Shown: positions 19,041 through 41,841 of the stretch, piece by piece
How positions within the stretch are numbered: position 1 is the stretch's first letter
Layout of the letters: each line of letters starts with the position of its first letter
NCBI RefSeq assembly: GCF_036429475.1
Contig: NZ_CP144125.1
Span: 2,993,521-3,057,520, forward strand
DNA: 64,000 nucleotides
Source of the DNA: Halalkalicoccus sp. CGA53
GTDB lineage: Archaea > Halobacteriota > Halobacteria > Halobacteriales > Halalkalicoccaceae
Reading direction: 5' to 3'
Notes under the pieces: model-generated
Told to the model about the DNA's origin: nothing
What the model saw: only the letters and a program-made list of their open reading frames with translations
Databases searched by the model: none
Made by a program: the position numbers and the translations under genes

Positions 19041-19111
19041 TGGGGCCGCCGAGAGTCGAACTCGGGTCCTACGCACCCCATGCGCAGAGGATACCACTAC
19101 CCCACGGCCCC
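19041..19111 (-). tRNA. tRNA-Pro(GGG)
   Basis: A full cloverleaf reads on the minus strand: acceptor GGGGCCG/CGGCCCC with discriminator A, D-arm GGGT...ATCC, anticodon stem TGCGC/GCGTA with loop ATGGGGT (anticodon GGG after U33), 4-nt variable loop, and T-stem CCGAG/CTCGG with loop TTCGACT. The 3' CCA is not encoded. 71 nt, no intron. Confidence 0.93.
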
Positions 19112-27584: not shown

Positions 27585-27647
27585 GTGGCACGGAGCCGGA
27601 TCGGCCGGACGGGTCGGGGGATTCTACGGGTTTCCGTGGTGGGTGAG

Positions 27648-28352
27648 CTACGACTCGCGGACGCTCGTGATCTGTCGACGGAGCGTGTCTCCGTCCTCGT
27701 CCCGGTACTCGACGGCGAACTGGTAGCCCGCCTCCGTCTCCCTGAGCTGATCGGTCCCGACTTCGAAACGGTACGGTGGTTCGTCGGCCTCCGCGATCAC
27801 CTCCCCCTCCACTATCGCCACCACGTGATCGACGTGCCGGGTGTCGTGGACCTCGCAGGTCACGAGGTCGTCGACCGGTCCCTCACACCGGAGTTCGCCA
27901 CGGACGTCCCCGCCCTCGTCCGAACCGACGGAGCCGAAGTCGAGGAGCATGAACCCCGGTGTTGAGAGCGCCAGCACGATCACCAGCGTGAAGAAGACGG
28001 AGAGGTTGATCTTCCCGCCGTTTCGAGCCAGCGTCCGGACGAACGGGCTGTTCGCGCTCCGACGGAGTTCGAGGACCAGCGGAACGATCACGAAGTGCGT
28101 GAGCGGCCCCCAGAACAACAGCAGGAAGCCGTAGGCCATCACGAAGTAGAGGAACGTCCAGTCCGGTCGGACCGACAGCAGGACGGCTCCACCCGCCCAG
28201 GCGCACAGTCCGAGAAAGAGGAGGGCGCCGCTTTTCAGCCACCGCCACACGGGCGTGTTGGCGTAGTAGACGCTCAGCATGTCCCGCCACATCTGCGTGA
28301 GATACCACCGGAGCGTCTCGGACGGTCCGTCGACGGTGGCCGGCTTCTTCAT
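27648..28352 (-). CDS. Unassigned membrane protein next to the oxidase operon
   Basis: 234 residues. Three membrane helices are visible (about residues 42-60, 68-95 and 115-136), with a W-R-D-M-L-S-V-Y-Y-A-N-T-P-V-W-R N-terminal segment and a C-terminal about 95-residue soluble domain containing C-E-G-P-V-D-D-L-V-T-C-E-V-H-D-T, predicted outside. Two Cys and two His in that domain could bind copper. It lies 115 nt downstream of oxidase subunit I, has a TATA-like element about 28 nt before its own start, and is likely an accessory factor. The family is not recognised. Confidence 0.65.
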   Translation of the reverse strand: MKKPATVDGPSETLRWYLTQMWRDMLSVYYANTPVWRWLKSGALLFLGLCAWAGGAVLLSVRPDWTFLYFVMAYGFLLLFWGPLTHFVIVPLVLELRRSANSPFVRTLARNGGKINLSVFFTLVIVLALSTPGFMLLDFGSVGSDEGGDVRGELRCEGPVDDLVTCEVHDTRHVDHVVAIVEGEVIAEADEPPYRFEVGTDQLRETEAGYQFAVEYRDEDGDTLRRQITSVRES

Positions 28353-28467
28353 CCGTCTACACGTTCCCGCTGCGGTTGTTTAGTGTTGGGGGCGCGTACC
28401 ATCGTGGTGGAATCGGACCCGGTTCGACTGTGGTTTGACTGTGGGTCGACGTCGGGTCTCGACGGGG

Positions 28468-30198
28468 TCACTGGCCGATCGACCAGAGCTGGGTCAACAG
28501 GAACCAGTTGAGGACGTACAGCAGCACGAACGTGGCCATGAAGATCAGGCAGATCCCGAACGTCCCCCGCATGTCGATGGCGTGGATCGACTCGCCACCG
28601 TCGGTCCTGAACTCGCCCTCGGGGAGCAGTCCACCGTCGTCGCCGTCCGCGAGTGGCTCGCCGAAGAGGATCGAACCGACCGCGACCAGGACGAACAGGA
28701 CGCCCGCCAGGATGGCCAGCACCGCGAAGATACCGAAGACGTTCATGAACGGGGCCGCCGCCGAGAGGCTGAACGTGGTCCCCGGGATCTCCTCGACGAC
28801 GCTCGAGGTCCGCCGCGGGACGCCGTAGAGGATCCCCGCGTAGATCATCATCATGACCGCGATCCCGAAGGCACCGGCGTACGCGTACGGGATCGCCGAC
28901 GCCAACCGATCCGAGACGAAGTCGCGGCGGAACATCGTCTTGATGACGAAGAATATCAGCCCCATGAACGCGAGCGTCGTCCCGAGCGCGACGGTCCCGT
29001 GGAAGTGGCCGACCGTCGCGAACGTGTTGTGCCAGGTCATGTTGAGCTGGATCTGTCCCATCAGGACGCCAGTGATCCCGCCGACGAACCCGAACAGGAT
29101 GATGCTGAAGATCACCGACGAGAACACCGGGTTTCGCCACGGTGCGCCGGTCAGCCAGCCGAAGAGCCCGCCGCCGAGCCCGCGTCGGCGTCGCCCGGCT
29201 TCGAGGCCGGCGGGGATCGCGAAGGCGTGGATGAGACTCGCGAACGCTGCCCCGTAGAACGCGTAGGAGGTGTTCCAGACCCGCCAGCCGACCGAGAGAC
29301 CGGGATCGACCATGAGGTGGTGTGCTGCGCCCAGGTTGATGAAAAAGAGGTAGAGGATGAACGCCGTCCGCGAGACCTTCTCCGAGACGACGACGGCACC
29401 GCCGACGACGTGCGTGAGGAAGTACCAGACGGTGACCATCGCCACGAGGTTGATCTGCTGTGTGCCGTGGCCGACGATCCAGTAGAGGTGACGGTAGAGC
29501 CCGACGTCGATCGAGCCGATGAGGCCGATCCTCCAGGAGAGCGCGTAGCCGAACGCGGCCAACCCGCCCAGGATCGCCTCGAAGGCGATGATGCTCGTGA
29601 TGAACGCCCCGAAGGTGACCAGCGGCAGCGATCCCGACGACTGGCGCGTCTCCCTCCAGATCGTCAGGAAGAAGGGGAGCGCGGCGATCGTCGCTCCGAG
29701 CAGGAAGACGATCGCGCTCGCGTAGAACCACTGGGACACCTCGAGGGGGACGTACGCCGTGAGCAGCGGCGCGTCGCCGGTCGGCCCCATCCGCCAGATC
29801 GAGACGTTCACCCCGATCGCACCGACGACCATCGTCGCCCACCCGAGTCCGGCCACCTTCGTGATGGGGAGCCGGCGACCGAGCACCATCGGACCGCCGA
29901 CGTAGAGGATCGCGATCTCCATGAACACCATCCAGAAGATGAGGATGTTCCACGCGTGGAGGCTGAGGTGGACGTAGTAGCCGTCGAACTCGCCGATCAG
30001 GCCGATCAGCTCCCAGCGGGTCAGCGCGACGGTCGTCGCGAAGATACCGCCGACGACGAGCGCGATCACGGCCGTCAGCCCGAACAGTTTGACGAACACC
30101 TCGGCCGATCGGTGGATCTCGAGTCCGGTGACCGAACACGTCCGGAAGCCCTCCCGGTCGTACTCGTTCTCGAAGAGGTCGCGAAGCGTTCCGCTCAT
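28468..30198 (-). CDS. cbaA: Cytochrome c oxidase subunit I, ba3 (cba) type
   Basis: 576 residues, about 13 membrane helices. Haem-copper oxidase signatures include H-A-W-N-I-L, W-I-V-G-H-G-T-Q-Q-I-N, the V-W-Y-F-L-T-H segment and W-H-N-T-F-A-T-V-G-H-F-H-G. It reduces O2 at the haem-CuB site. The absence of A-family K/D-channel motifs and similarity to the Natronomonas cba subunit place it in the B-type. Stop and start of the adjacent subunit II gene abut at 30198/30199. Confidence 0.93.
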   Translation of the reverse strand: MSGTLRDLFENEYDREGFRTCSVTGLEIHRSAEVFVKLFGLTAVIALVVGGIFATTVALTRWELIGLIGEFDGYYVHLSLHAWNILIFWMVFMEIAILYVGGPMVLGRRLPITKVAGLGWATMVVGAIGVNVSIWRMGPTGDAPLLTAYVPLEVSQWFYASAIVFLLGATIAALPFFLTIWRETRQSSGSLPLVTFGAFITSIIAFEAILGGLAAFGYALSWRIGLIGSIDVGLYRHLYWIVGHGTQQINLVAMVTVWYFLTHVVGGAVVVSEKVSRTAFILYLFFINLGAAHHLMVDPGLSVGWRVWNTSYAFYGAAFASLIHAFAIPAGLEAGRRRRGLGGGLFGWLTGAPWRNPVFSSVIFSIILFGFVGGITGVLMGQIQLNMTWHNTFATVGHFHGTVALGTTLAFMGLIFFVIKTMFRRDFVSDRLASAIPYAYAGAFGIAVMMMIYAGILYGVPRRTSSVVEEIPGTTFSLSAAAPFMNVFGIFAVLAILAGVLFVLVAVGSILFGEPLADGDDGGLLPEGEFRTDGGESIHAIDMRGTFGICLIFMATFVLLYVLNWFLLTQLWSIGQ

Positions 30199-30741
30199 CT
30201 ACGGCTCCCTCACGACGAACCGTTCCTGCATGCTGTTGTGTCCCGGCCCACAGAACTCGTTACAGATGACCCGGTAGCTGCCGGGTTCCTCGAACGTCAT
30301 CGGGACGACCCACTCCCGGTCCGGGAAGATCTGTAAGTTGATCTGCTGGCTCAGCGAGTGTTCGGGTCTGACGGAGAAGCCGTGCTGGACGTCGTACGCC
30401 CCGAGGTGGACGTCGTACTCCCTATCGACCTCAAGTTCGACCGGGAGTCCGTCCCAGAAGAACCGCCCGCCGGCGATGAAGACGTCGTCGCCCGGCGGTA
30501 CGATCCCGTCCTCACCCTCCTCGGCGGCCTCCTTGTACTCGTCGACCTTCGCCCGATACTCCTCCGGTGTCACCTCGTAGGTGTCCCCGATCGGGTTCTG
30601 ATCGCCGAACTGCGTGAACCCGGCCATCCAGGCGAAGATACCGAGCGACCAGGCGCCGGCGATCCCCAGCCAGATACCCTCGCGGCGGTTGATCGGATGG
30701 TCCCACCAGTTCTCGTCCGGCGGTCCGAGTGGTCCTGCCAT
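30199..30741 (-). CDS. cbaB: Cytochrome c oxidase subunit II, cba type
   Basis: 180 residues: one N-terminal membrane helix (about 24-44), then a cupredoxin CuA domain with H-G-F-S-V near residue 128 and C-N-E-F-C-G-P-G-H-N-x-M near residues 158-169. These hold the two Cys, two His and Met of the binuclear CuA. It accepts electrons from a halocyanin-type donor and passes them to subunit I. Confidence 0.93.
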   Translation of the reverse strand: MAGPLGPPDENWWDHPINRREGIWLGIAGAWSLGIFAWMAGFTQFGDQNPIGDTYEVTPEEYRAKVDEYKEAAEEGEDGIVPPGDDVFIAGGRFFWDGLPVELEVDREYDVHLGAYDVQHGFSVRPEHSLSQQINLQIFPDREWVVPMTFEEPGSYRVICNEFCGPGHNSMQERFVVREP

Positions 30742-30745
30742 CGGA

Positions 30746-30892
30746 TCACCCCGGTGGCGCGGAGAAGATGTCGATCACGCCCCAGCCCACGTACGACAGG
30801 GCGAAAAACAGCAGTGCGAGGGCGGCTAGCAACCAGATCCGGTCGTACAGCAACTGCATCGTGGGCACGTCGTCTCTGTTCGATTCTTTCAT
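30746..30892 (-). CDS. cbaD: Small cba oxidase subunit (CbaD-like)
   Basis: 48 residues, one membrane helix (about 17-38) after an M-K-E-S-N-R-D-D-V-P leader. It is the first gene of the operon, 4 nt before cbaB. Small single-helix proteins occupy this place in known haloarchaeal cba operons; the symbol is from that context. A TATA-like ctattttaag lies about 36 nt upstream (30925-30934). Confidence 0.7.
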   Translation of the reverse strand: MKESNRDDVPTMQLLYDRIWLLAALALLFFALSYVGWGVIDIFSAPPG

Positions 30893-31128
30893 GAAGGATG
30901 GGCAACACTGGGACGGGCTCTCTTAAAATAGTTTCCCCGATGGTGTTCGCCCGGAAGAGGCGGGATCGGTGAACGACGGTCTTCGACTCTCCGCAGTGCC
31001 CCGTCGACTCCGTATCCGTACCGTCCGAAACCGCGACGGCCCCTCATCAGTCGACGTCAGACGTACTCGGATCGACGAGGAGAATCGAATCCTCTCCGCT
31101 AGCCCGGGCTGCGTCACAACCACTGGCG

Positions 31129-31620
31129 TCACTCCCGATCGACCCACAGCAGGTACGAGAGAAGCACGAGGAGGATCAGTTCCGTCACCTTGGCGACCGA
31201 TGCGATCGTGTCGTTCCGGAGGTGGTGTCCCAGACTCTCTGCGACCCCCACCTCCTCGTGTCCGTGGCCGGCGAGGTGTGGCCAGAACGCGCCGTGGTCG
31301 AGGACGGTGTGCCAGGCGACGTAGCCCGCGACGTAGACCACCATCAGGCAGGCACCCGCGGCGTACAGCGGTCGTCGTCGGATTCCGAGATACCCGAGTA
31401 CGGCACCGGCGAGAAGGGCACCGCCCGTGAGGACGAACAGCGGCGGTCGTGGGTCGTATATCGTCCCCAACTCGGCGTACAGGAGCATCGTCGAGAGCCC
31501 GTACTGGGGATGGAGGAGGTGGATCCAGGCGACGAGCAGGACGAGCAGTCCGGCGACCCGGCGGACCGTTCGACGCCGCGTATCGTTCGCGTCCGGGTCA
31601 CCTGACACCTGTCGACCCAT
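31129..31620 (-). CDS. Unassigned four-helix membrane protein, His-rich loop
   Basis: 163 residues from the ATG at 31620 (TTG at 31623 also possible). Four membrane helices: about residues 22-36, 58-78, 85-104 and 143-160. A loop between helices 3 and 4 carries many histidines, including H-L-A-G-H-G-H-E-E and L-G-H-H-L. A minus-strand TATA-like gtatagat lies about 26-33 nt upstream. It sits just upstream of the cba operon in the same direction, across 236 nt. The loop could bind metal; no family recognised. Confidence 0.6.
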   Translation of the reverse strand: MGRQVSGDPDANDTRRRTVRRVAGLLVLLVAWIHLLHPQYGLSTMLLYAELGTIYDPRPPLFVLTGGALLAGAVLGYLGIRRRPLYAAGACLMVVYVAGYVAWHTVLDHGAFWPHLAGHGHEEVGVAESLGHHLRNDTIASVAKVTELILLVLLSYLLWVDRE

Positions 31621-32104
31621 CAAACGAGAGTCACACGTGGGGGATATCTATACGTTTCGTACGCGCGATGGACCGCGATACGCTCTCGGGTATCCCGTCA
31701 TAGGTGACCCGAGCCCCATCTCGGGATCCGGATGGATCACCCGACGTCGTACACGAGTGGTACCCACGTGACCGACCGAGGTCCTCGCTCGGTGAATCGG
31801 CGGTCTTACCGTCGGGGCTTCCGTTACACCTCGGAATCCACGAGAGGATCGTACAGATCGCCGTCGAGCGAGAGAGCAGTCCCGAGCGATCTCGAATCGC
31901 GGGGAGGAGTTATCACCGATCGGCTCGAACCGTCCTCCGTGGTGATGGCGTCGATGGCGAGCACGGCGAGTAGCCAGGCGGTGGGAAACGTCCCTCCGAC
32001 ACCGCCCGCTCTCGAGTGTACGATAGAGTACCACCCTGGTACCGCGCGAGACCGACGCACCACCGCATCGATGTTTCAGTCGGGACGTCGAGTCACGATC
32101 GATC
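31621..32104. other. Intergenic region without a convincing gene
   Basis: About 480 nt. Open frames here are serine/arginine-rich and lack the acidic composition of the neighbours. A 79-codon minus-strand frame (31824-32063) has a short hydrophobic stretch but no other support. The region separates divergent membrane-protein genes. Confidence 0.4.
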
Positions 32105-32965
32105 ATGGTCGGTAACCGTCCCCCGTCGCCCGACGCCGCTGCGACGGCGATGACGACCTGGCCCTCTACTGTGGATCACGCCGTGTTCGTCGGCGGAACG
32201 ACGCTCCAGCACGCCGATCTGGCGCTCTTCTTCCTCGTCGGGCTCCTCGCGGGCGCCCACTGTCTGGGCATGTGTGGCCCGCTCGTGACGACGTACGCGG
32301 ACCGAATCGGTGCGAGCGGACGCGGGCGGCGCGGGGACGTGCTGACCGTCTACGAGGTCCGCCAGCACACGCTGTTCAACCTCGGTCGAGCCGCGAGCTA
32401 CGCGCTGCTGGGTGGTCTGTTCGCTCTGATCGGCGGCGTGGCGTTCGCCTCCGTCGACGTGGTCGGAGCCGTCGGCGATGTCGTCCGGGGGACCGCGGGA
32501 GTGCTGGTCGGCGGTGCGATCGTCGCCAGTGGCGTCTACTACCTCACGGGTCGGACCGACGTGACCCACAGAGTACCGATCGTCGGCTCCCTGTTCAGTC
32601 GGGTGTTCGCCGCGCTCTCGAATCGGATCGATCGGCTCGCGAACTCCCCCGGAATCGTCGGTCTCGGCGCGATCCACGGGCTCCTGCCCTGTCCGATCAT
32701 CTACCCCGCCTACCTCTACGCGTTCGCACTCGGGGATCCGCTCAGGGGGTTCCTCTCGCTCGCAGTGCTCGGTCTCGGGACGATCCCGACCCTGTTCGCC
32801 TACGCGACGATCCTCGGATCGGTCGGGACGGCTCGACGGGTCCAGCTACATCGGGCCCTCGGCCTCGCGTTCGTGGTCCTCGGGTACGTCCCGCTCCAGC
32901 ACGGCCTGATGCTCTTCGGGATCCACCTCCCGCACCCGCCGATCCCGTTCTACCAGCCGCTGTGA
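32105..32965 (+). CDS. UreH/TauE-like membrane protein (urease accessory UreH_2 type)
   Basis: 286 residues, about six helices. The signature G-A-H-C-L-G-M-C-G-P-L near residue 50 and a second G-L-L-P-C-P-I-I-Y segment near residue 197 match the UreH_2 group within the LysE/DsbD-like superfamily. Bacterial relatives sit beside ccoI/ccoS and act in copper handling during cbb3 oxidase assembly. Presence here with the copper ATPase and cba oxidase suggests a similar role. ATG at 32150 is an alternative start. Confidence 0.85.
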   Translation: MVGNRPPSPDAAATAMTTWPSTVDHAVFVGGTTLQHADLALFFLVGLLAGAHCLGMCGPLVTTYADRIGASGRGRRGDVLTVYEVRQHTLFNLGRAASYALLGGLFALIGGVAFASVDVVGAVGDVVRGTAGVLVGGAIVASGVYYLTGRTDVTHRVPIVGSLFSRVFAALSNRIDRLANSPGIVGLGAIHGLLPCPIIYPAYLYAFALGDPLRGFLSLAVLGLGTIPTLFAYATILGSVGTARRVQLHRALGLAFVVLGYVPLQHGLMLFGIHLPHPPIPFYQPL

Positions 32966-33212
32966 GGGTCCCGGAACCGAAACTCGAACCGCGACCGGAA
33001 CCGGTAGCCCGGCGGTGTCCGTCGACGTAGTGATTCGGGATCCGTTCCGGCTCGTGGACGGGCCAGCGCGACTGGTACAGCCAGCGGCCGAATGAGCCGG
33101 TCGTGGCGTACACGAGCTGTCACGACTGCTACCCCCGATAGGGAGCGGCCGCGTTAGAAATCGATAGCGTTCTCTCACGGCGTGTAGAGAGCGTACCCAA
33201 GCACGGATGATC
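32966..33212. other. Left flank of the integration site: remnant of a secY-downstream segment
   Basis: Positions 33081-33212 align without gaps to 40242-40373 with about 73% identity by hand count. The minus-strand translation V-T-A-R-V-R-H-D-R-L-I-R-P-L resembles the N-terminus of the zinc-ribbon protein at 40093-40293, but no start codon or zinc motif survives. I read it as a degraded copy of the segment that follows the secY 3' end. Confidence 0.55.
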
Positions 33213-33240
33213 GGCGTTATCTGCCGAACATCTGGCGCAT
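33213..33240. repeat. Left attachment site (28-bp direct repeat, attL)
   Basis: Exact 28-bp copy of 40374-40401. The right copy holds the last 24 bases of secY including its stop codon; this left copy is not attached to a secY gene. It lies 45 bp before the integrase start, as expected for an element end. Confidence 0.85.
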
Positions 33241-33257
33241 ATTCGTCTGATAAAGCC

Positions 33258-33263
33258 TATAAT
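33258..33263 (+). promoter_or_regulatory. TATA box of the integrase gene
   Basis: tataat lies 22-27 nt before the integrase ATG and 17 bp inside the left repeat, so integrase transcription starts within the element, at the attachment region. Confidence 0.65.
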
Positions 33264-33284
33264 CTGGGCTGGTGTAGGTAGAAT

Positions 33285-34565
33285 ATGGCTAACGTGAACG
33301 ACACCAACAACACCCGAGGAAAGCTCGAAAGCCAGTGGAGACTGCTTCGAGAGGCCGATATCGACAATCGAGATCGAAATGCGATCGAAGATTTCGTGAG
33401 ACTTCATCGTCAGAACGTCGAAAACCGTGCTCTCCTTACACTTTACACCGACCTGAGCACACTCAGAAACGCCTCCGAACGGGCAGACACCCCTCTGGTA
33501 GACATGAAAATGGGTGACGTGCGACGACTTCTGGGAAAACTCGTCGCCCCGAAGGACCAGGGAGGTTACGACCTCGACCCCCAGGGAACTGGGATCTTCG
33601 GGTACAAGCGAGCGCTCAGAATCTTCTTTCAGTGGCTCGACCAACAACCCGACTTTGGGGATTTCGGGTTCTATGAACACATCGAACTCCCCTCGCATAA
33701 CGTAGAACGCGTGAGCGAGGACCAAGTCCCCACGGAGGAAGAAGTCGAAGAACTCAAAGCTGGAGCTGTAAACGCACGGGATAAAGCCCTAATCGAGTTT
33801 CTCGCAGATACCGCCGCACGGATCTCCCTGGCCTCTCAACTGCGGGTTGGCGACGTCTATGACCTCGACACGGATCGACCGCACTACAAACCTAACTCGA
33901 ATGGGATCAATCACAAAGACGCACCCCTCAGACGGTATCCGATCCTCTACAGTCAGGTGGATCTCCGATCGTATCTCGCACAGCATCACATCGATCCCAG
34001 AGATGAAGCCCCTCTCTGGCACGTTCTTCACGGATACGATCGGATGGAACCGGAGAAGGGTGCCCTGAGCAGCGATCGTATTCGTAGCATGCTCAGGGAA
34101 TGCAAGAGTCGAGCCGATATCCAAAAGCCGGTCAACCCTCACAACTTCCGACACACGGCCATTACCCGACTCTCTAGGGCGGGATACACCCCGAAAGAGA
34201 TTCAGCACATCGCTGGTTGGGCCGACGATCGGATGCTCGAGGCATACGATCACACGACCGACATCGAGCGTAATGATCAGATCCGAATCCGTGCAGGCCT
34301 CATCGACGAGACGGATACCGGAACAGCCCCACCCAGACCGAAGACGTGCGAAAACTGTCGGGAGCAGCTCAACCCGAGTTCCCGCTTCTGTCCCAGATGC
34401 GGTACAGCCACGACAGAAAAGGCGCGTACGGCTGTAGAGGACCAAGAGGATCGGTTCTTCAGATCCGGGCTCGAGGCAGAGGGAGAGCTGACCGAGGCTG
34501 TCCGAGAGTTCCGTCGGCTCATTTCCGAATACCCCACCCTGAGAGCCGCCGTTTTGGACGACTGA
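33285..34565 (+). CDS. Tyrosine recombinase/integrase with C-terminal zinc ribbon
   Basis: 426 residues. An N-terminal SAM-like core-binding domain (about 20-150) precedes the catalytic domain. Predicted active-site residues are Arg179 (A-A-R-I-S), His286 and Arg289 (H-N-F-R-H), His308 or Trp312 (H-I-A-G-W) and the nucleophile Tyr321 (E-A-Y-D-H). After the catalytic domain comes a zinc ribbon (Cys355, Cys358, Cys369, Cys372) and an acidic helical tail. The set is complete, so the enzyme is probably active. Position beside the left repeat makes it the recombinase of this element. Confidence 0.92.
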   Translation: MANVNDTNNTRGKLESQWRLLREADIDNRDRNAIEDFVRLHRQNVENRALLTLYTDLSTLRNASERADTPLVDMKMGDVRRLLGKLVAPKDQGGYDLDPQGTGIFGYKRALRIFFQWLDQQPDFGDFGFYEHIELPSHNVERVSEDQVPTEEEVEELKAGAVNARDKALIEFLADTAARISLASQLRVGDVYDLDTDRPHYKPNSNGINHKDAPLRRYPILYSQVDLRSYLAQHHIDPRDEAPLWHVLHGYDRMEPEKGALSSDRIRSMLRECKSRADIQKPVNPHNFRHTAITRLSRAGYTPKEIQHIAGWADDRMLEAYDHTTDIERNDQIRIRAGLIDETDTGTAPPRPKTCENCREQLNPSSRFCPRCGTATTEKARTAVEDQEDRFFRSGLEAEGELTEAVREFRRLISEYPTLRAAVLDD

Positions 34566-34573
34566 CTCTACAC

Positions 34574-34723
34574 TCATATGAGACTCTTTCTTTCGTCGAG
34601 CACCGCGAGCGTACGCTCGGCGTCTCTCGCGATCGGAAGTGAAGATTTTTCGAGCCGTTCTAACAGCTCCCGGTTCGATTCTATCATCGCTATCGGTAAC
34701 TCCGGTCGTGCCGCTTCGCTCAT
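34574..34723 (-). CDS. Small hypothetical protein convergent to the integrase
   Basis: 49 residues, M-S-E-A-A-R start, mostly helical and charged (E-S-N-R-E-L-L-E-R-L-E-K). It ends 8 nt from the integrase stop. Length and composition suit a small DNA-binding or excisionase-like partner, but no motif proves that. The opposite-strand frame here is serine/arginine-rich and less likely. Confidence 0.45.
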   Translation of the reverse strand: MSEAARPELPIAMIESNRELLERLEKSSLPIARDAERTLAVLDERKSLI

Positions 34724-35075
34724 TCGACCACCTCTGAGTCGTCCGCGTTCAGGATTGGTTCGAGGCAGGGTTCTCACTCGACGAGCGAGAGTTGGATTTG
34801 TCGCTTGTTAGTCGATGCTTCCGCTGGTGTTTCTCTTCTCGTGACTTTCATTGTCCGTCGGATGAGCCTTTAAGGAGGCCAACCCGAACGAGCTGGATCG
34901 AACCATAGGCGATTTCCGACGAAATCGTCCGAAAGTACTTTGTCCACTCACAGGCCAGTGGAGAGTACAGGGCTGGGTCGATCCGACCCGTTCCTTTGCT
35001 TCGCACGCCGGTGACCGAGTTCCTTGGACGGGGATGGTCGCTGGCGTCGAACGATACGTTCCCATAGCTCCTTCT
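34724..35075. other. Intergenic region in the element
   Basis: 352 nt. A minus-strand frame (34808-35065, 85 codons) is open but lacks acidic composition or motifs. No repeat or RNA gene is recognised. Confidence 0.35.
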
Positions 35076-35228
35076 CTATTCTTGGGCTTCGTCGACCTCG
35101 TCGGGGTCGTACTGTTCTACCATCTTCTGGAGTAGTTCATCGTACGATTCACCACCTCTCTTCTTCGATTTCACCAACTGTCGGGTAGAGCGCGAGCAGG
35201 GAATTCTCGACTCGGTTCGGTTCGACAT
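35076..35228 (-). CDS. Small RHH/VapB-like protein (haloarchaeal DUF7557-like)
   Basis: 50 residues: M-S-N-R-T-E-S-R-I-P-C start, a basic K-S-K-K-R turn, then G-E-S-Y-D-E-L-L-Q-K-M-V-E-Q-Y helix and an acidic tail. The pattern strand-basic turn-G-E-S-Y/F-D-E-hydrophobic helix is typical of short haloarchaeal ribbon-helix-helix antitoxin-like proteins. It is divergent from the 35315 gene; the shared 86-bp region carries a TATA-like element for each direction. Confidence 0.7.
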   Translation of the reverse strand: MSNRTESRIPCSRSTRQLVKSKKRGGESYDELLQKMVEQYDPDEVDEAQE

Positions 35229-35314
35229 GTCACTGCCAGTTACCGGCACGTATCGCGCCGATAAAGTTATTTCGGACAGCGTGGTCGAAGTTTGTAGGAG
35301 GAAACCGACGAATC

Positions 35315-35956
35315 ATGGTAGAGGAGGATAAACTGGATTTCACCGATTTGTTCGCTGGAGATGAAGAAGCGGAGGACATCGAATGGGAAGGTATCGAGCT
35401 CGAAAAGCGACCACGCGGGATCCTTTCACACACCGATCGAGAATTCCTTTGGGGGCTACGCGAATACGCACACGCACAATCGGAGTCGAATCGCAAGCAA
35501 GACATCCGCGAGCGGGTTATCAACGCGCTCTACGATTATCCACTCCTCGCTGTACTTTTGGACGAGGGCGAACGAGACAAGATCTTTCAGGAAGAAACAA
35601 ACGAGGAAGATCTCAATAGATGTCTCGAGTGGATCATCACGTTCATCTATCTCGGTCTCGGACAGGACGAGGATCGATTCGAGGACCTGATCGAGAGGGG
35701 AATCTACTTCGGGGCGAACTTCGACAAAGACGGGCGCTGGGTCGGCGAAGCGACCGACGTCGAGGTCTCCATCGACATCGAATACAATCCTGATGTCGAC
35801 AAACTCTACAATCAGCTTCAGCAAGGAGAGGGTGATGAACTAAGTCCGGCCGAGATTGGAGTTCTCGTTCAAGCGGGGAAACTCGATGCTGACGATCTCG
35901 GTGAGTTAGAGGATTCGGAGCCGAAGTTTCCACGCGTATCTACTGGGCTGAATTAG
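35315..35956 (+). CDS. Acidic protein of unknown function, accessory-genome type
   Basis: 213 residues, very acidic at both ends. The central part, S-H-T-D-R-E-F-L-W-G-L-R-E-Y then R-K-Q-D-I-R-E-R-V-I-N-A-L, looks like a family I have seen repeatedly in haloarchaeal mobile regions, but no function is known to me. A C-terminal L-S-P-A-E-I-G-V-L-V-Q-A-G segment may be a small helical domain. An aggagg at 35296-35301 precedes the ATG by 13 nt, unlike most genes here, so this transcript probably has a leader. Confidence 0.7.
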   Translation: MVEEDKLDFTDLFAGDEEAEDIEWEGIELEKRPRGILSHTDREFLWGLREYAHAQSESNRKQDIRERVINALYDYPLLAVLLDEGERDKIFQEETNEEDLNRCLEWIITFIYLGLGQDEDRFEDLIERGIYFGANFDKDGRWVGEATDVEVSIDIEYNPDVDKLYNQLQQGEGDELSPAEIGVLVQAGKLDADDLGELEDSEPKFPRVSTGLN

Positions 35957-36087
35957 TGAATGGGTTGATCTACATCGACAGGAACAATCCACGGGCACAA
36001 AGGTAAACGAGGTCGATGGGAGCCACCTCGAGCGCTTTATCCAGGGGACCGTGCGGCCTGAAGCTTTTCAACTCCTTCCCAAAGCCT

Positions 36088-36543
36088 CTACTCTCCGGTA
36101 TCCTCTGGAACAACCGTAAAGCCGAGGGTTCGGAAGTGGTCTGGATCAAAGGTGAACATGTGCTTGATGTCGCGTTCGGCGGCGAGTACACCGCTCATGT
36201 GGTCGGTGAACGAGATCTCGTGGTCGTCATAATGACGAAACTGATCGAGCGCGGCGTCAAAGTCCGTCTCATCGGGGTGAATGACGATAGTTGCTGACTG
36301 TTGAACCCATCCGATCGCGGTGGTGGCGGCCTTGTGATTGCGGTGACTAAGAATGAGTGTCGCCAGTTCATCGAGCACGTACGTGGACGTGTACAGCGGT
36401 CGATACACCGCATCACCGGTGCCGATCGCCTTGAAGACCGACGTCGCGCGTTCGTGGCGCTGTGCCGTCTCTACGAACCGTGCGTAGAACGCTCCAGTGT
36501 CGATAAACAAGGTTAGTGCACCGGGCGTATCACTGTCCGACAC
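36088..36543 (-). CDS. PIN-domain ribonuclease toxin (VapC-like)
   Basis: 151 residues. PIN signature: L-F-I-D-T-G-A with Asp15, S-T-Y-V-L-D-E with a central acidic pair, and the S-F-T-D-H near residue 114 with the third acidic residue. Such enzymes cleave specific RNAs when free of antitoxin. It starts 3 nt after the upstream winged-helix gene stop, forming an operon. The 35957-36087 stretch after it is empty. Confidence 0.87.
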   Translation of the reverse strand: MSDSDTPGALTLFIDTGAFYARFVETAQRHERATSVFKAIGTGDAVYRPLYTSTYVLDELATLILSHRNHKAATTAIGWVQQSATIVIHPDETDFDAALDQFRHYDDHEISFTDHMSGVLAAERDIKHMFTFDPDHFRTLGFTVVPEDTGE

Positions 36544-36546
36544 CTA

Positions 36547-36909
36547 TCAGCCCTCGCCGTAGAGAACGTCGTCGATCTCGGTTTCATCAACCGGGTCCTC
36601 GGGCGCGAGGAGCGGCTTGTCGCTGAAGAGTGGATCGTTGGGGTCGATCTCTGGAGGGTGTTCGGGAGTGGGTTCATCGTCGATGAGCCACCACACAACC
36701 GCGCCTGCCCCAACCTGCCGGCGCGCGACGAGCCCCTGATCACGAAGCTCTAAAAGCTTCTGCCGAGCGGCTTCGGCGGAGCATCCGAGCGTCTCGCCGA
36801 CCTCTTTTGCGGTCGCGATTGGCGAGTCACTCTCCTGAAGGATGCCGATGACGTCCTTCAGCGCGATCTCCTCGACGAACTGCCCACTCTTGTTTCGTTT
36901 GCGTCCCAT
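36547..36909 (-). CDS. Winged-helix antitoxin-like partner of the PIN protein
   Basis: 120 residues from the ATG at 36909, with a minus-strand TATA (ctatag) about 25 nt upstream. The N-terminal about 75 residues form a winged helix (T-A-K-E-V-G-E-T-L-G-C-S-A-E-A-A-R-Q-K-L); the C-terminal 45 are acidic and proline-rich, suited to wrap the toxin. Typical VapB proteins are shorter ribbon-helix-helix or AbrB types, so this is a less common pairing. Function as antitoxin is inferred from context. Confidence 0.75.
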   Translation of the reverse strand: MGRKRNKSGQFVEEIALKDVIGILQESDSPIATAKEVGETLGCSAEAARQKLLELRDQGLVARRQVGAGAVVWWLIDDEPTPEHPPEIDPNDPLFSDKPLLAPEDPVDETEIDDVLYGEG

Positions 36910-37230
36910 GTAGGACTCTACGGAGGTCACCACTATAGCCCTGTTGGTGCGCGGCAAATGGGGAGGGTTATCGCTTATGGGTGCGTAACAACTAGCAGGG
37001 ATAGATCGGCTCCTCGAGGCATGTTCTTCGTCCGAGAATGGCCGGGTAATGCCAATATGGATTAGCAAGAGAACTCATACATTTGGCTACATAATATCTA
37101 TTGACTGTCAGGACCGGCGTGCGAGATACACGGCGCGTATTCATCACGGGATAATGCCGCACGGTTGGATCGCGATACCTATTGTCCCACCAACTACTTC
37201 CCTCGCTGGCTACAACTAGCGGGTAAGACA
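36910..37230. promoter_or_regulatory. Divergent intergenic region
   Basis: 321 nt with no gene. It is AT-richer than flanking DNA (about 37035-37105), including a tacataatatc element near 37088 that may be the promoter of the reductase gene, with a long leader of about 110 nt. The TATA of the winged-helix gene is at its left end. Confidence 0.4.
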
Positions 37231-38013
37231 ATGTCTCTAGCTCAGCCGACGGTCGACAGTCAGTCGGACACAGCACTCGACGGAAAGACTATCGTCGTGA
37301 CCGGTGCCTCGCGCGGTATCGGTCGCGGTATTGCAGAGGAGTTGGGAGCTCACGGGGGGAATATTGCGGTCAACTACCGGTCCTCGGATGGCGAGGCAAC
37401 GGACGTCGCCAGTCTCATCGACGAGACAGCTGGAGAGGCCATCACGGTGCAGGGTGACGTTGCGAACTTCGAGGTCATGCAGACGATGGCCGACCGTGTC
37501 CGCGACGAGTTCGGTGCAGTCGATGTGCTGGTGAATAACGCCGGAATTACGATGGATTGCTCGTTCGAGAGGATGACCCCCGAGGAGTGGCAGTCCGTTA
37601 TCGGCACCAACCTGACAGGCGTTTTTAACGCGACCAAGGCATTCTACGAGGACATCAAGGAAGCCGACGACGGCCGTATTGTCAACATCTCCAGCCTCGT
37701 CGGTGAGGAGGGGAACTTCGGTCAGGCGAACTACGCCGCTTCGAAGGCAGGCGTCCACGGCCTCACCATGACGCTTGCGAAGGAGCTGGCCCCGTCAGGG
37801 TCGACCGCGAACTGCGTCTCGCCAGGCTTCACCGAGACTGACATGCTCGCCGGCGTGTCCGAGACGATTCGGGAGAACATCCGCGACGACATCCCACTTT
37901 CCTGCTTTGCTCAACCCGAGGACATTGCGGCCCTCGTCCGGTTTCTCGCGTCCGCGGAGTCGGGGCACATCACGGGACAGGTCCTGTCGGTCTCCGGCGG
38001 ACACAACCTCTAA
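37231..38013 (+). CDS. SDR oxidoreductase, PhaB/FabG-like (acetoacetyl-CoA reductase type)
   Basis: 260 residues from the ATG at 37231. Classical SDR: T-G-A-S-R-G-I-G near residue 27, N-N-A-G near 104, a catalytic Ser in I-S-S-L-V-G and Y-A-A-S-K, and S-P-G-F-T-E-T-D-M near the C-terminus. Arg and Ser in V-N-Y-R-S-S predict NADPH use. Closest remembered relatives are haloarchaeal PhaB acetoacetyl-CoA reductases of PHA synthesis, but no other pha gene is here. It is element cargo. Confidence 0.85.
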   Translation: MSLAQPTVDSQSDTALDGKTIVVTGASRGIGRGIAEELGAHGGNIAVNYRSSDGEATDVASLIDETAGEAITVQGDVANFEVMQTMADRVRDEFGAVDVLVNNAGITMDCSFERMTPEEWQSVIGTNLTGVFNATKAFYEDIKEADDGRIVNISSLVGEEGNFGQANYAASKAGVHGLTMTLAKELAPSGSTANCVSPGFTETDMLAGVSETIRENIRDDIPLSCFAQPEDIAALVRFLASAESGHITGQVLSVSGGHNL

Positions 38014-38287
38014 AGGGGCCGTCTTTCTGCCGAGTTGCCAAACTCGATAGGTATTCGTGGCCTGATGCGTAGAGCCTCTCCATGTAGCAGGCTGTTTCTG
38101 TCATAAATTGATTCTATCTGTCCGTTGAAGACGTGAGTAGACTCGCAACTTCAGGCTCGAAGCCACACTTACCTTATCTGCCAGAGCGCCGGAGGCGCGA
38201 CGCGGCGGTCGACCGTAGCGGCCATCGCGGACGCTCCGCCGTGGGCACCAGGTTAAAAAAGGTCATTCGTTGATCGTTTCGGCCGGT
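38014..38287. other. Intergenic region in the element
   Basis: 274 nt between convergent genes. No gene is seen. The segment 38180-38250 is GC-rich with several ggcg/cgcc inverted pieces that could form RNA structure at transcript ends. Confidence 0.3.
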
Positions 38288-39487
38288 TCAGTGCGAGTGC
38301 CGCTCTTCCTCCCACCAGGCCTCGGCCTCCGCCTGCTGTTCCTCGGGAAGATCCTTCCAGAAGGAGTTATTGTGGAAGTTCTGGAGGTCGTCGACCTCGT
38401 CCGGGCTGCGCTCGAAGAGCGCGCCGCTGGCGAGCTCGGCGTGGAGGTTGTCGAACATGAACTTCGCATGGCGAACCAGCTGGCCGCGTGACGCGTTATT
38501 CAGCTCCGACGCCTGACCTCGCTGCTCGATCAGGATGCTGCCGCGACCGGCTACCCCGTGTGCGTTACGGGCGATGTTCACGGTGGTGCCGCCGGGATAT
38601 CGGGAGACGTTCCCGTTCGCCCGGCCCTGGACGCCGTCTCGGAGGGCCGCGACGCCTCGCTTCGAGAGGTCGACCGCCTCGTCCGGCGCAGCTTCGTTGT
38701 ACGGCCAGGCCATCGAGACGTTGATCATGTCGCAGTCGTCGTCGTAGTAGGTGAACTGCGTGTGCCAGTCGACGACGAGATCGGCGCCGACCTCCTCGAC
38801 CTTGTCGAGCATCGCCTGGGTCTCCGGCGAGGGGTTCTCGTCCGGAATCCCGACATCGGCGTCGAAGGCATCCGGATCGACCTGGGCGAGGGTCTGGTCG
38901 TCGAACTGGAAGTAGTGCTGGCGGTTCGGGTCGACCGGACCGCACTGGGTCGTCGGCTGCCACCACGAGGCGTACGGGTTATCGTGGCATTCGCTCTCGG
39001 GGCGCGCGTTCGACCGCGTGGGGGTCTCGTTGTCACCGGCTGGCGCCCAGCCGTCCGGGTTGTGCCGCGGGATGACGTGGATCGTCACCTCGTCCAGGAT
39101 GTCGTCGTTCCCCCGGCCGTTCCCGAGCACCTGCAGGACGTCGAGCGCGGCCTCGGTGCCGGGCTGCTCGTCGCCGTGCTGCTGGGTGGTGTGGAAGACG
39201 TGGAAGTCCCCGCTGCCGATCGTCGCGTACGGGATCGGTCGACCCTCCCAGGTCTCGCCGATCTCTTCGTACTCGACGTTCGATCGGTTCTCGAGTCTGT
39301 GGAGTCGGTCGTAGAGCTGTTCGTTCGATAGGAAGCCTTGGTAGTTCTCCGCGGCCGTCTCCGGCGGGAACGGACCATTCGGCGTGATCTTGTCACAGTC
39401 GGCGACAGCTGTCCCAGTGACGGCGATACCGAGTGTACTCGCCGCAGCGATACCTCCTACGCTCTGAAGTATGTGGCGCCTTTTCAT
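38288..39487 (-). CDS. Tat-exported M14 zinc carboxypeptidase
   Basis: 399 residues. R-R-H-I-L-Q-S-V and a hydrophobic stretch ending near A-V-A-D at residue 30 predict a Tat signal without lipobox. The M14 zinc ligands are His104 and Glu107 (Q-Q-H-G-D-E-Q) and His242 (V-D-W-H-T), with P-N-R (187-189) in the substrate site and E-Q-R-G as a likely catalytic Glu. It would release C-terminal residues from peptides outside the cell. A ctataag element lies about 30 nt upstream on the minus strand. Confidence 0.88.
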   Translation of the reverse strand: MKRRHILQSVGGIAAASTLGIAVTGTAVADCDKITPNGPFPPETAAENYQGFLSNEQLYDRLHRLENRSNVEYEEIGETWEGRPIPYATIGSGDFHVFHTTQQHGDEQPGTEAALDVLQVLGNGRGNDDILDEVTIHVIPRHNPDGWAPAGDNETPTRSNARPESECHDNPYASWWQPTTQCGPVDPNRQHYFQFDDQTLAQVDPDAFDADVGIPDENPSPETQAMLDKVEEVGADLVVDWHTQFTYYDDDCDMINVSMAWPYNEAAPDEAVDLSKRGVAALRDGVQGRANGNVSRYPGGTTVNIARNAHGVAGRGSILIEQRGQASELNNASRGQLVRHAKFMFDNLHAELASGALFERSPDEVDDLQNFHNNSFWKDLPEEQQAEAEAWWEEERHSH

Positions 39488-39600
39488 GGCGTACCAAGAA
39501 CCACATAATAGATGTGCTTATAGATTTGCAAAGATCAAAATGGATGTATTTACGAGGTCTTAATAACTCAATAAAGGATAATAATGAAAATTTATATCCG

Positions 39601-40096
39601 CTAATGTATAAATTTTCCGGAAGATCTACAGAGCGTAGAATGGCAAGTTTGCTTCTGTGCCTGGACGAACTCCAGGAACAGGTCGAGGAATTCGTCCGGC
39701 TCGAGGTTCGATTCTGCGAATCGGACGTTGATCCCTTCGATTCCCTTCTTATCGAACGGCGTCGATATCGGCTCGCCAGTCTCGTAAGGACGCATGTCGG
39801 GGAATCACGGTTGGATGAGGAGTTCGCCTTCCGTTCCCCGTGCCCATAGGCACTGATTCTGAGCTCGTAGAGTCGATCACCTCCGACAGAATCCGTCAGC
39901 CGCGGTGCGATCCCACTCTTCTGGTACGAAAGAGTGAGCGTCCAGGATTCGCTGCCGATCGGAACCTCGATCTCCCCCGAGAAACCATTGAATCCGGCGT
40001 GAGGAGCTTCGAAAGGATCCAGTACGGGCACAACCCATGCTTGGTGAAGACGAGGTTCCCCTCGCACTCGTGCGGGGCTGACTCCACCTGGGTCAC
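39601..40096 (-). pseudogene. Decayed gene of a haloarchaeal conserved family (DUF7845-like)
   Basis: Coherent protein pieces lie in different frames: the start M-T-Q-V-E-S-A-P-H-E through A-K/S-K-L-L-T-P; then G-E-I-E-V-P-I-G-S-E-S-W-T-L-T-L and Y-E-L-R-I-S-A-Y-G-H-G; then P-D-M-R-P-Y-E-T-G-E-P-I-S-T-P-F to a stop at 39601. At least two frameshifts plus an in-frame TGA before F-P-D-M break it, and the C-terminal half is missing. I recognise the pieces as a common haloarchaeal family that I recall as DUF7845 (unverified). GTG at 40096 overlaps the zinc-ribbon gene stop. The 39488-39600 stretch is AT-rich and empty. Confidence 0.7.
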
Positions 40097-40293
40097 GGTA
40101 GACCCCCCTCGGGAGAGCCCCGAAGCAGACGAGTGTCACAGTAAGGACAGAAGAATCTGCGAGCACCAGGAACGAAGACGACTCGAATCGAGCGTCCGCA
40201 GGAGTGATTCGGGCACTCCGTCGTCGTTTCATTCGTTTCACCCAGCGGCCGAGCGGGTTGGTCGTGCCGCGCTCGCGCCGTCACGACGCCCAC
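40093..40293 (-). CDS. Small zinc-ribbon protein at the right end of the element
   Basis: 66 residues from a GTG. An N-terminal basic segment is followed by C-P-N-H-S-C-G (two Cys) and F-F-C-P-Y-C (two Cys), a zinc ribbon of about 25 residues. Its stop overlaps the start of the decayed downstream gene by 4 bp (GTGA), showing they were an operon. The first third lies within the segment repeated at the left end of the element. Function unknown. Confidence 0.6.
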   Translation of the reverse strand: MGVVTARARHDQPARPLGETNETTTECPNHSCGRSIRVVFVPGARRFFCPYCDTRLLRGSPEGGLP

Positions 40294-40373
40294 CCCCGAC
40301 GGGGACCGGCTGCCTTAGAAACCGATAGATGTTTCTCGGAGGGTGTAGAGAACTTAAAGAAGCACAGATAATA

Positions 40374-40401
40374 GGCGTTATCTGCCGAACATCTGGCGCA
40401 T
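40374..40401. repeat. Right attachment site (attR) overlapping the secY 3' end
   Basis: 28-bp exact copy of 33213-33240. It begins 4 bp beyond the secY stop codon and covers the last seven sense codons of the gene (I-R-Q-M-F-G-R region), so recombination here restores secY. Confidence 0.85.
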
Positions 40402-41841
40402 CATCGGGTGCATCTCCATGAGTTGCTCCTCGGCGATCTCCTCGTAGAGCTTGTACGTGATCGACACTGCCAGCAGCAGGCCCGTCCCGTCGACGTTCCC
40501 GATCGTGCCGAGCATGTTCGCCATCACGGCGAGCCCGCCGACCAGCGCGCCCCCGATGACGGTCACCTGCGGGATGTATCTGGCGAGGACCTTCTCGTAG
40601 ACCCCGACGTTCTGTCGGAAACCGGGGATCTGCATCCCCGTGTTCTGGATCTGCTGGGCGGTCGCTTCCGGCCCCATGTTCGTCGTCTCGACCCAGAAGA
40701 TCGCGAAGATCGCACTCCCAACGATCATGAACGTCAGATCCACGAACACCCGGATCGCGATCATCCACGGTTCGGCGGTGGTCGTCCCGAGCCACCACAT
40801 CCACTCCGTCGGGCCCATGATCGGGCTGAAGTAGTAGAAGAAACCGGAGACCGCCTGCCCGTCCGAGTAGACCCCGAGCGCGGCGGGCATCCCCGCCCAC
40901 TGGCTGTCGAGGATCCGGCCGAGGAACTGGATGTTCATCTGGAGCGCCCGGACGAGGATGATCGGCAGGACGCTCGCGTAGATCAGCTTCACCGGGAACC
41001 GACCCCGCGCACCCTTCACCCGAGCGTGCGAGAGCGGGATCTCCACCCGGACGGACTCGGCGTAGATGACGATCGCGAAGATCACCAACGTGGTGAGGAT
41101 CGCGAGCAGTTGCACCTCGGTGAACAACAGCGCGACGACCCCCTCGGAGGTCAGCGGCGAGGGCATCTCCCGGCTTCCCAGCAGGATGCCGATCCACACC
41201 GCGAGGAAGCCCGGCTGATCGCCCAGACCCTCCCAGGCGAACACCCCGCCCAGGAGCGCCTGGCTCACCCCGGCGATGATGAACAGCCCGATCCCCGAGC
41301 CGACACCCCACTTCGAGACGATCTCGTCCATGAACAGGATCAGGATCCCGCCGATCATGATCTGGGTGAACATCAGCCACTGCACCGTCGAGGTGCCGTA
41401 CGCGGCCGCCGATTCGGGACCCACTGGAAGGAAGCCGCCGAAAAACACCATCGGGAACGCGGTGAGCGCGGTCATCACGATCACCAGCAGCTTCTGGAGT
41501 CCCTGATAGAGCACCTGGTCCCGCGGGTCGTTCGTATCTAACCCGAGGAGACCGGCCCCGCCCAGCAGCTGGAGCACGATGCTCGCGGTGACGATCGGTC
41601 CGATGCCGACCTGCATGATCGAGCCGTGTTCGCCAGCGAGGATCGTGCGGAACTGCCCGAAGAGGTCGTCGCCGATCTCGGTGCCGGGCAGCCCCCAGAG
41701 GGTGATGTTAGTGAGGAAAAAGTATACGACCAGCACCCCGGCGGTCCACCCGAGCTTTCGCTTGAAGGGGACGTGCCCCTCCGGCCGGGTGACACCGGGC
41801 ATTCGTGTGAGGACCGGTTCGGCGGTCTCCTTCCAGCTCAT
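40378..41841 (-). CDS. secY: Protein translocase subunit SecY
   Basis: 487 residues, ten membrane helices. It is the channel of the Sec machinery. The plug region, the G-P-I-V-T-A-S-I-V-L-Q-L-L helix and the R-G-R-F-P-V-K loop are normal. It is the last gene of the ribosomal run, 3 nt after rpl15. Its final codons form half of the element's attachment site, yet the protein appears full length. Confidence 0.97.
   Translation of the reverse strand: MSWKETAEPVLTRMPGVTRPEGHVPFKRKLGWTAGVLVVYFFLTNITLWGLPGTEIGDDLFGQFRTILAGEHGSIMQVGIGPIVTASIVLQLLGGAGLLGLDTNDPRDQVLYQGLQKLLVIVMTALTAFPMVFFGGFLPVGPESAAAYGTSTVQWLMFTQIMIGGILILFMDEIVSKWGVGSGIGLFIIAGVSQALLGGVFAWEGLGDQPGFLAVWIGILLGSREMPSPLTSEGVVALLFTEVQLLAILTTLVIFAIVIYAESVRVEIPLSHARVKGARGRFPVKLIYASVLPIILVRALQMNIQFLGRILDSQWAGMPAALGVYSDGQAVSGFFYYFSPIMGPTEWMWWLGTTTAEPWMIAIRVFVDLTFMIVGSAIFAIFWVETTNMGPEATAQQIQNTGMQIPGFRQNVGVYEKVLARYIPQVTVIGGALVGGLAVMANMLGTIGNVDGTGLLLAVSITYKLYEEIAEEQLMEMHPMMRQMFGR

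Follow-up and report, generated by a model that had tools for sequence, protein, structure and literature searches.

A 7.2-kb element at the 3' end of secY in Halalkalicoccus and a haloarchaeal integrase family probably dedicated to this site

The usual docking sites of archaeal integrases are tRNA genes, and a tyrosine integrase enclosed between two copies of the end of a protein gene raises the question of whether such a gene can be a regular target of integration. The case arose in a window of 64,000 nucleotides from Halalkalicoccus sp. CGA53 (NZ_CP144125.1, positions 2,993,521 to 3,057,520), where the 28-mer GGCGTTATCTGCCGAACATCTGGCGCAT occurs as an exact direct repeat at positions 33213-33240 and 40374-40401. 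By a rough estimate, the chance expectation of a 28-bp repeat in 64 kb is ~1e-8, and a search of the whole 4.04-Mb genome found the sequence in these two places only, even with 3 mismatches, which shows that it is not a dispersed repeat. The right copy reads ATG CGC CAG ATG TTC GGC AGA TAA followed by CGCC: the last seven sense codons and the stop of secY, as originally predicted, plus 4 nt. It forms the putative in-gene core (attL, 40374-40401, minus strand) at the end of an intact secY of 487 aa (40378-41841, minus strand; PF00344, 4.6e-65; TIGR00967, 9e-95). The left copy, the putative attR core (33213-33240, minus strand), is free-standing and close to the integrase start, at a measured distance of 44 bp. 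In the secY sense, the core is ATGCGCCAG-ATGTTC-GGCAGATAACGCC, with ATGTTC at 33226-33231 in the free copy and at 40387-40392 in the gene. The window thus has an integrase gene adjoining one att site and direct repeats at both junctions, one of them completing secY. Within the enclosed 7.2 kb (33213-40401), the G+C content is 53-63% in comparison with 63-68% around it. A tRNA is not the target, the tRNAs of the window being found only at 19041 and 55107, and an Rfam search of 32-41 kb gave no match.

The integrase (33285-34565, plus strand, 426 aa; PF00589, 9.6e-18) carries a C-terminal zinc ribbon. The prediction of a complete tyrosine recombinase with its catalytic residues held, R179, K211, H286, R289 and Y321 being invariant in the clade alignment. 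Downstream of it lie an ORF of 213 aa with no family match (35315-35956, plus strand); a PIN-domain protein, likely the toxin of a toxin-antitoxin pair (36088-36543, minus strand; PF01850, 1.2e-9); and, directly upstream of the PIN gene, a winged-helix protein that is likely an antitoxin or regulator (36547-36909, minus strand; PF04703, 2e-4), with a weak match to AbiEi_4 and one to the transcriptional regulator phrog_18890 (2.3e-10). The remaining genes encode a FabG-like short-chain dehydrogenase (37231-38013, plus strand; PF13561, 1.2e-59; phrog_3142, 1.3e-57) and an M14 zinc carboxypeptidase with a Tat-like signal and the N terminus MKRR (38288-39487, minus strand; PF00246, 1.7e-18). Parts of 38.0-38.2 and 39.6-40.2 kb appear non-coding. 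By its gene content, the element is no provirus: neither virion nor replication genes were recognised among the Pfam-type and phrog matches, and it is thus a genomic-island-like member of its family or a decayed one.

We searched 392 genomes of the order, sampled as one genome per species, with an alignment of the integrase. The top clade comprised eleven clearly separated genomes which, together with Halobellus captivus and an IMG/VR record, formed one clade of 13 with support 100/100; the window integrase falls inside it. This clade A spans several haloarchaeal families. In nine elements, a free secY 3' end lies upstream of the integrase gene on the opposite strand, and the arrangement is the same throughout, with secY itself on the far side at a distance of 7-46 kb. 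Besides the window, these are the elements of Halobellus captivus (27.5 kb between integrase side and secY), Natronoglomus (14.8 kb) and QS_1_68_20 (G017; 36.3 kb), and of the genomes G354 (18 kb), G083 (34 kb), G301 (46 kb), G255 (10 kb) and G383 (28 kb). The free copy has the same position relative to the integrase in all eight of the other genomes. Genome G001 contains a 77-kb element of reversed geometry, with the integrase on the secY side. The search for secY ends beside integrases of this family elsewhere thus gave eight genomes with the same geometry, the reversed G001 and an element on a plasmid described below. The original prediction had called the target unusual; the use of a protein-gene end stands, but the case is recurrent in haloarchaea and no one-off. 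Among 16 weaker homologues from sister clades, no secY end was seen beside the integrase.

The comparison revealed an attachment-site anatomy beyond what had been described for the window. In the secY sense, all nine elements show the layout P(10)-25 bp-ATGTTC-12 bp-P'(10), in which the 10-bp arms, with the consensus CAGATNTTAG, are inverted relative to each other on the integrase and secY sides. The integrase start lies 18 bp from the P arm in 8/9 elements and 22 bp in G383, and the 12-bp spacing of P' from ATGTTC is kept also in G001. In the window, arm P is CAGATTATAG (33257-33266, minus strand; secY sense), 25 bp from ATGTTC and 18 bp from the integrase ATG, and arm P' is CTATTATCTG (40365-40374, minus strand; secY sense), 12 bp from ATGTTC. 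The two arms of one element are more alike than shuffled partners (permutation p=0.007, eight elements), and we consider the inverted arms candidate integrase-binding sites. The core common to both ends is as short as GCGCGAGATGTTC in Halobellus, and this shortest form therefore bounds the crossover; in elements other than that of the window, the end-to-end identity is as little as 13-21 bp. Apart from three chance matches, a search across the order with the secY-side core and arm returned the window and G001 alone, the low number being explained by the variation of the arms. We had considered 33239-33266 as an inverted second core, with an invertible segment between the secY core and the integrase-side core. 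This reading was dropped once further elements had been compared, as they showed the similarity to consist of inverted arms with constant spacing.

Not all members of clade A are found at secY. The integrase of G205 has no secY copy upstream and has another target. A 26-kb clade member on plasmid p163 of Halorubrum sp. BOL3-1 (L144:22391-48506) carries a secY tail, MRQMFGNE-stop, at its P' end. It is inserted at a site outside secY, and the chromosomal secY is uninterrupted; the site appears intergenic because the joined flanks do not restore a long ORF. These two cases show that clade A is able to use other sites. In G161 (L163), an element end of the clade A type follows secY, and at a distance of 7 kb downstream stands an incomplete second secY (aa 128-486); no integrase was seen among the ORFs between them. 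A second secY-end copy in G165 was rejected as a chance match inside an ORF.

The anatomy suggests how the elements may insert. The circular form would carry an attP of the layout above, its middle mimicking the last codons of secY, and the integrase would pair this attP with the secY end (attB) and exchange strands inside GCGNNANATGTTC. After insertion, secY would end in element-supplied codons, the stop and the P' arm, while the displaced original end would stay as the free copy beside the integrase gene on the far side. We infer strand exchange, excision and the role of the arms in integrase binding from sequence comparisons. The polarity can be followed in relatives of the carriers. The secY of G013 is uninterrupted and runs into DNA whose counterpart in G301 is found 46 kb away, on the outer side of the free copy; the free copy of G301 (tail FGNE-stop) is identical over its first 32 nt to the G013 secY end, and the flank past it continues as the downstream DNA of the G013 gene (88% over 0.9 kb). 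The G301 secY itself now ends in FGSE-stop. Similarly, the free copy of G001 keeps MFGGR-stop, the tail of several congeners, and its gene ends in MFGD-stop. The tails in these two cases show the free copy to be the old secY end and the tail of the gene to be newly acquired. SecY is unchanged in the window, whose old and new tails are identical over 28 bp. The earlier claim that insertion restores the end of secY accordingly applies to the window, but the last codons are often replaced elsewhere.

Uninterrupted sites combining secY and the flank were found for relatives of three carriers, the evidence being sequence in the case of G301 and gene order in the cases of G383 and G255; G205 has the downstream genes and their order in common with the latter two and no insert. 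The check proposed for the window, a search for secY joined to the flank without the insert, gave such sites in these relatives of other carriers and none for the window genome, no sampled relative being close enough; the left flank of the window element is itself probably a remnant of an older element. G009, of the same genus, was rejected as an empty site, because the space between its two secY ends holds a 0.94-kb insert of its own. This insert (L064:697-1683) is an RHH-PIN module between the secY end and a free copy; it contains no integrase and lacks the clade A arms.

The prediction of a site-specific insertion at secY is supported by the clade-wide target, the geometry and the empty sites in relatives. 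We put the probability at about 0.93 that 33213-40401 is a site-specifically integrated mobile element and that its integrase belongs to a haloarchaeal family dedicated to the secY 3' end. The similarity of the two ends is not limited to the repeat: in imperfect form it reaches ~190 bp past both copies of the 28-mer (33020-33212 versus 40193-40373, 77%), which could indicate a tandem duplication of the secY 3' region or a homologous, Campbell-type recombination via a captured secY tail, with the integrase as a passenger. We regard such an origin as highly improbable. Perfect identity is confined to the 28-mer, the 13-21 bp common to the ends of other elements are too short for ordinary homologous recombination, and integrase, arms and spacing are kept together across haloarchaeal families; the end of a second element explains the long similarity better. 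A different doubt concerns the present state of the site-specifically integrated element, which could be a dead remnant of a once-mobile insertion no longer able to excise. The lack of recognised replication and virion genes and the partly non-coding appearance of 38.0-38.2 and 39.6-40.2 kb fit this. Against these stand the full-length integrase with its catalytic residues, the identity of the cores over 28 bp and the fit of both arms to the consensus, and we hold the loss of mobility to be a possible but less probable state.

The long similarity also bears on what the element met on insertion. Aligned to 40180-40374, the left flank at 33020-33212 gave a score of 65 against a shuffled maximum of 22. 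The secY-proximal element end (40193-40364, minus strand) resembles both this flank and the ends of other clade members: the right arm region scored 24 with G161 and 23 with G083 (shuffled maximum 16) and marginally, 20 versus 18-19 in shuffles, with G354 and p163. In G218 (L171), two elements stand in tandem: after the free secY end of an element of the second lineage described below come the arm and the end of a clade A element similar to that of G301. Because the right arm resembles other element ends and because of this tandem, we lean towards 33020-33212 (minus strand) being the end of an older element, with a decayed arm (CGATCATCCG), over host DNA carried by the element. In that case, a related element probably already stood at the secY end when the window element arrived. 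Under a competing account, to which we give less credence, 33020-33212 is native DNA downstream of secY that was copied in the element and no older tandem remnant exists. The segment directly follows a secY end, the element could have captured a host terminator region, and the similarity of the left flank to the elements of G161, G083, G354 and p163 was not above shuffles. That the right copy resembles element ends in other families, clearly in G161 and G083 and marginally in G354 and p163, and that G218 has a tandem array at secY speak for the older element end instead. A DsbD-like gene of the left flank was not found beside secY in G008, whose assembly is without secY, or in other relatives, and the ba3 oxidase and DsbD genes further left are located elsewhere in relatives; the outer junction is therefore not ancestral and has a complex history. 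The cluster of ba3-type oxidase, DsbD and copper ATPase genes at 25140-32965 of the window is rearranged in comparison with G008 and G016, where the ATPase gene comes directly after DsbD.

Integration at secY is not confined to clade A. A secY 3' end pattern occurred at least twice on the same strand in ~32/392 genomes and on opposite strands in 11, as counted by hand from the match table, and few matches were found with the reversed-pattern control. One of these genomes, G362, led to an integrase (L164:1674-2804) that showed no BLASTP similarity to the window integrase. Of 20 genomes with integrases of this type (L169-L187 besides L164), which we call clade B, 16 had either the end of secY within 1 kb upstream of the integrase gene or a free-standing secY end close to it. 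Fourteen of the 20 clade B genomes were among the 43 with the doubled pattern, giving a hypergeometric p of ~1e-10 that is post hoc, as the family was found through the same pattern. The clade A integrase gene is distal to secY and faces it, whereas that of clade B is mostly found just downstream of secY in the same reading direction. We think it very likely that the secY 3' end is a general haloarchaeal integration hotspot comparable to tRNA genes, used in ~25/392 sampled genomes by at least two integrase lineages without detectable similarity, and that proviruses, defence islands and toxin-antitoxin modules accumulate there, at times in tandem, and rewrite the last SecY residues.

The cargo of related elements is diverse. 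An IMG/VR record encoding a terminase, a portal protein, a major head protein and a tape-measure protein has the same integrase region as G301, with complete identity, and these genes mark the G301 element as a tailed provirus; one portal hit suggests that the QS_1 element is a provirus as well. The element of Halobellus captivus (L103/L104) carries Cas8b, Cas5 and Cas1, genes of a type I-B CRISPR-Cas system, and that of Natronoglomus (L102) HsdM, HsdS and HsdR of type I restriction.

Archaeal integration at protein-gene 3' ends is already established (PMC6563490, PMC8371274). Krupovic et al. (2019) described 14 insertions of thaumarchaeal elements at the 3'-distal ends of assorted genes (PMC6563490); like clade A, these combine a tyrosine recombinase, a protein-gene 3' end and short att repeats, and in NitEve-E2 element sequence takes the place of the stop codon, as in the secY elements. 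Unlike those assorted targets, with secY unmentioned in the text, a single gene is targeted by the whole of clade A across several families. Badel et al. (2021) list coding genes entered by haloviruses and other archaeal elements, namely BJ1 in HMG-CoA reductase, Msmi-Pro1 and NitGar-E6; these share the protein-gene integration with the window element but are single cases, and secY is absent from the review, which names recombination at non-tRNA sites, their dyad symmetry and their essential positions as open and untested (PMC8371274). The SNJ2-type integrases of pleolipoviruses are likewise haloarchaeal tyrosine integrases with an attP that restores the target's 3' end (PMC8371274), the target being the 3' end of a tRNA gene; the phage-collection matches of the window integrase at E<=1e-5 included no SNJ2 records. 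In bacterial genomic islands identified with TIGER and Integrase-On-Demand, attP also restores a protein-gene end, and the main text does not name secY (PMC12884075). Our search of the literature, mainly of open-access main texts and as such no proof of novelty, for secY with integrase, provirus or hotspot gave no report of a recurrent secY target.

The secY elements provide enough natural replicates at one archaeal protein-gene site to read the att anatomy from sequence, and they document an essential membrane protein whose tail is repeatedly altered by mobile elements. They define an attB in a universal single-copy gene, usable for haloarchaeal integration vectors, and add a new site at which proviruses and defence islands overlooked by tRNA-based searches can be sought. 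A further fixed site may exist among distant relatives of the integrase: two homologues, one elsewhere in the same genome (L134, C2:2087414-2088646) and one in G364 (L125), have in common the upstream stretch ATGGA.GTACGTCTTTCA.CACCTG, which is possibly another target gene end.
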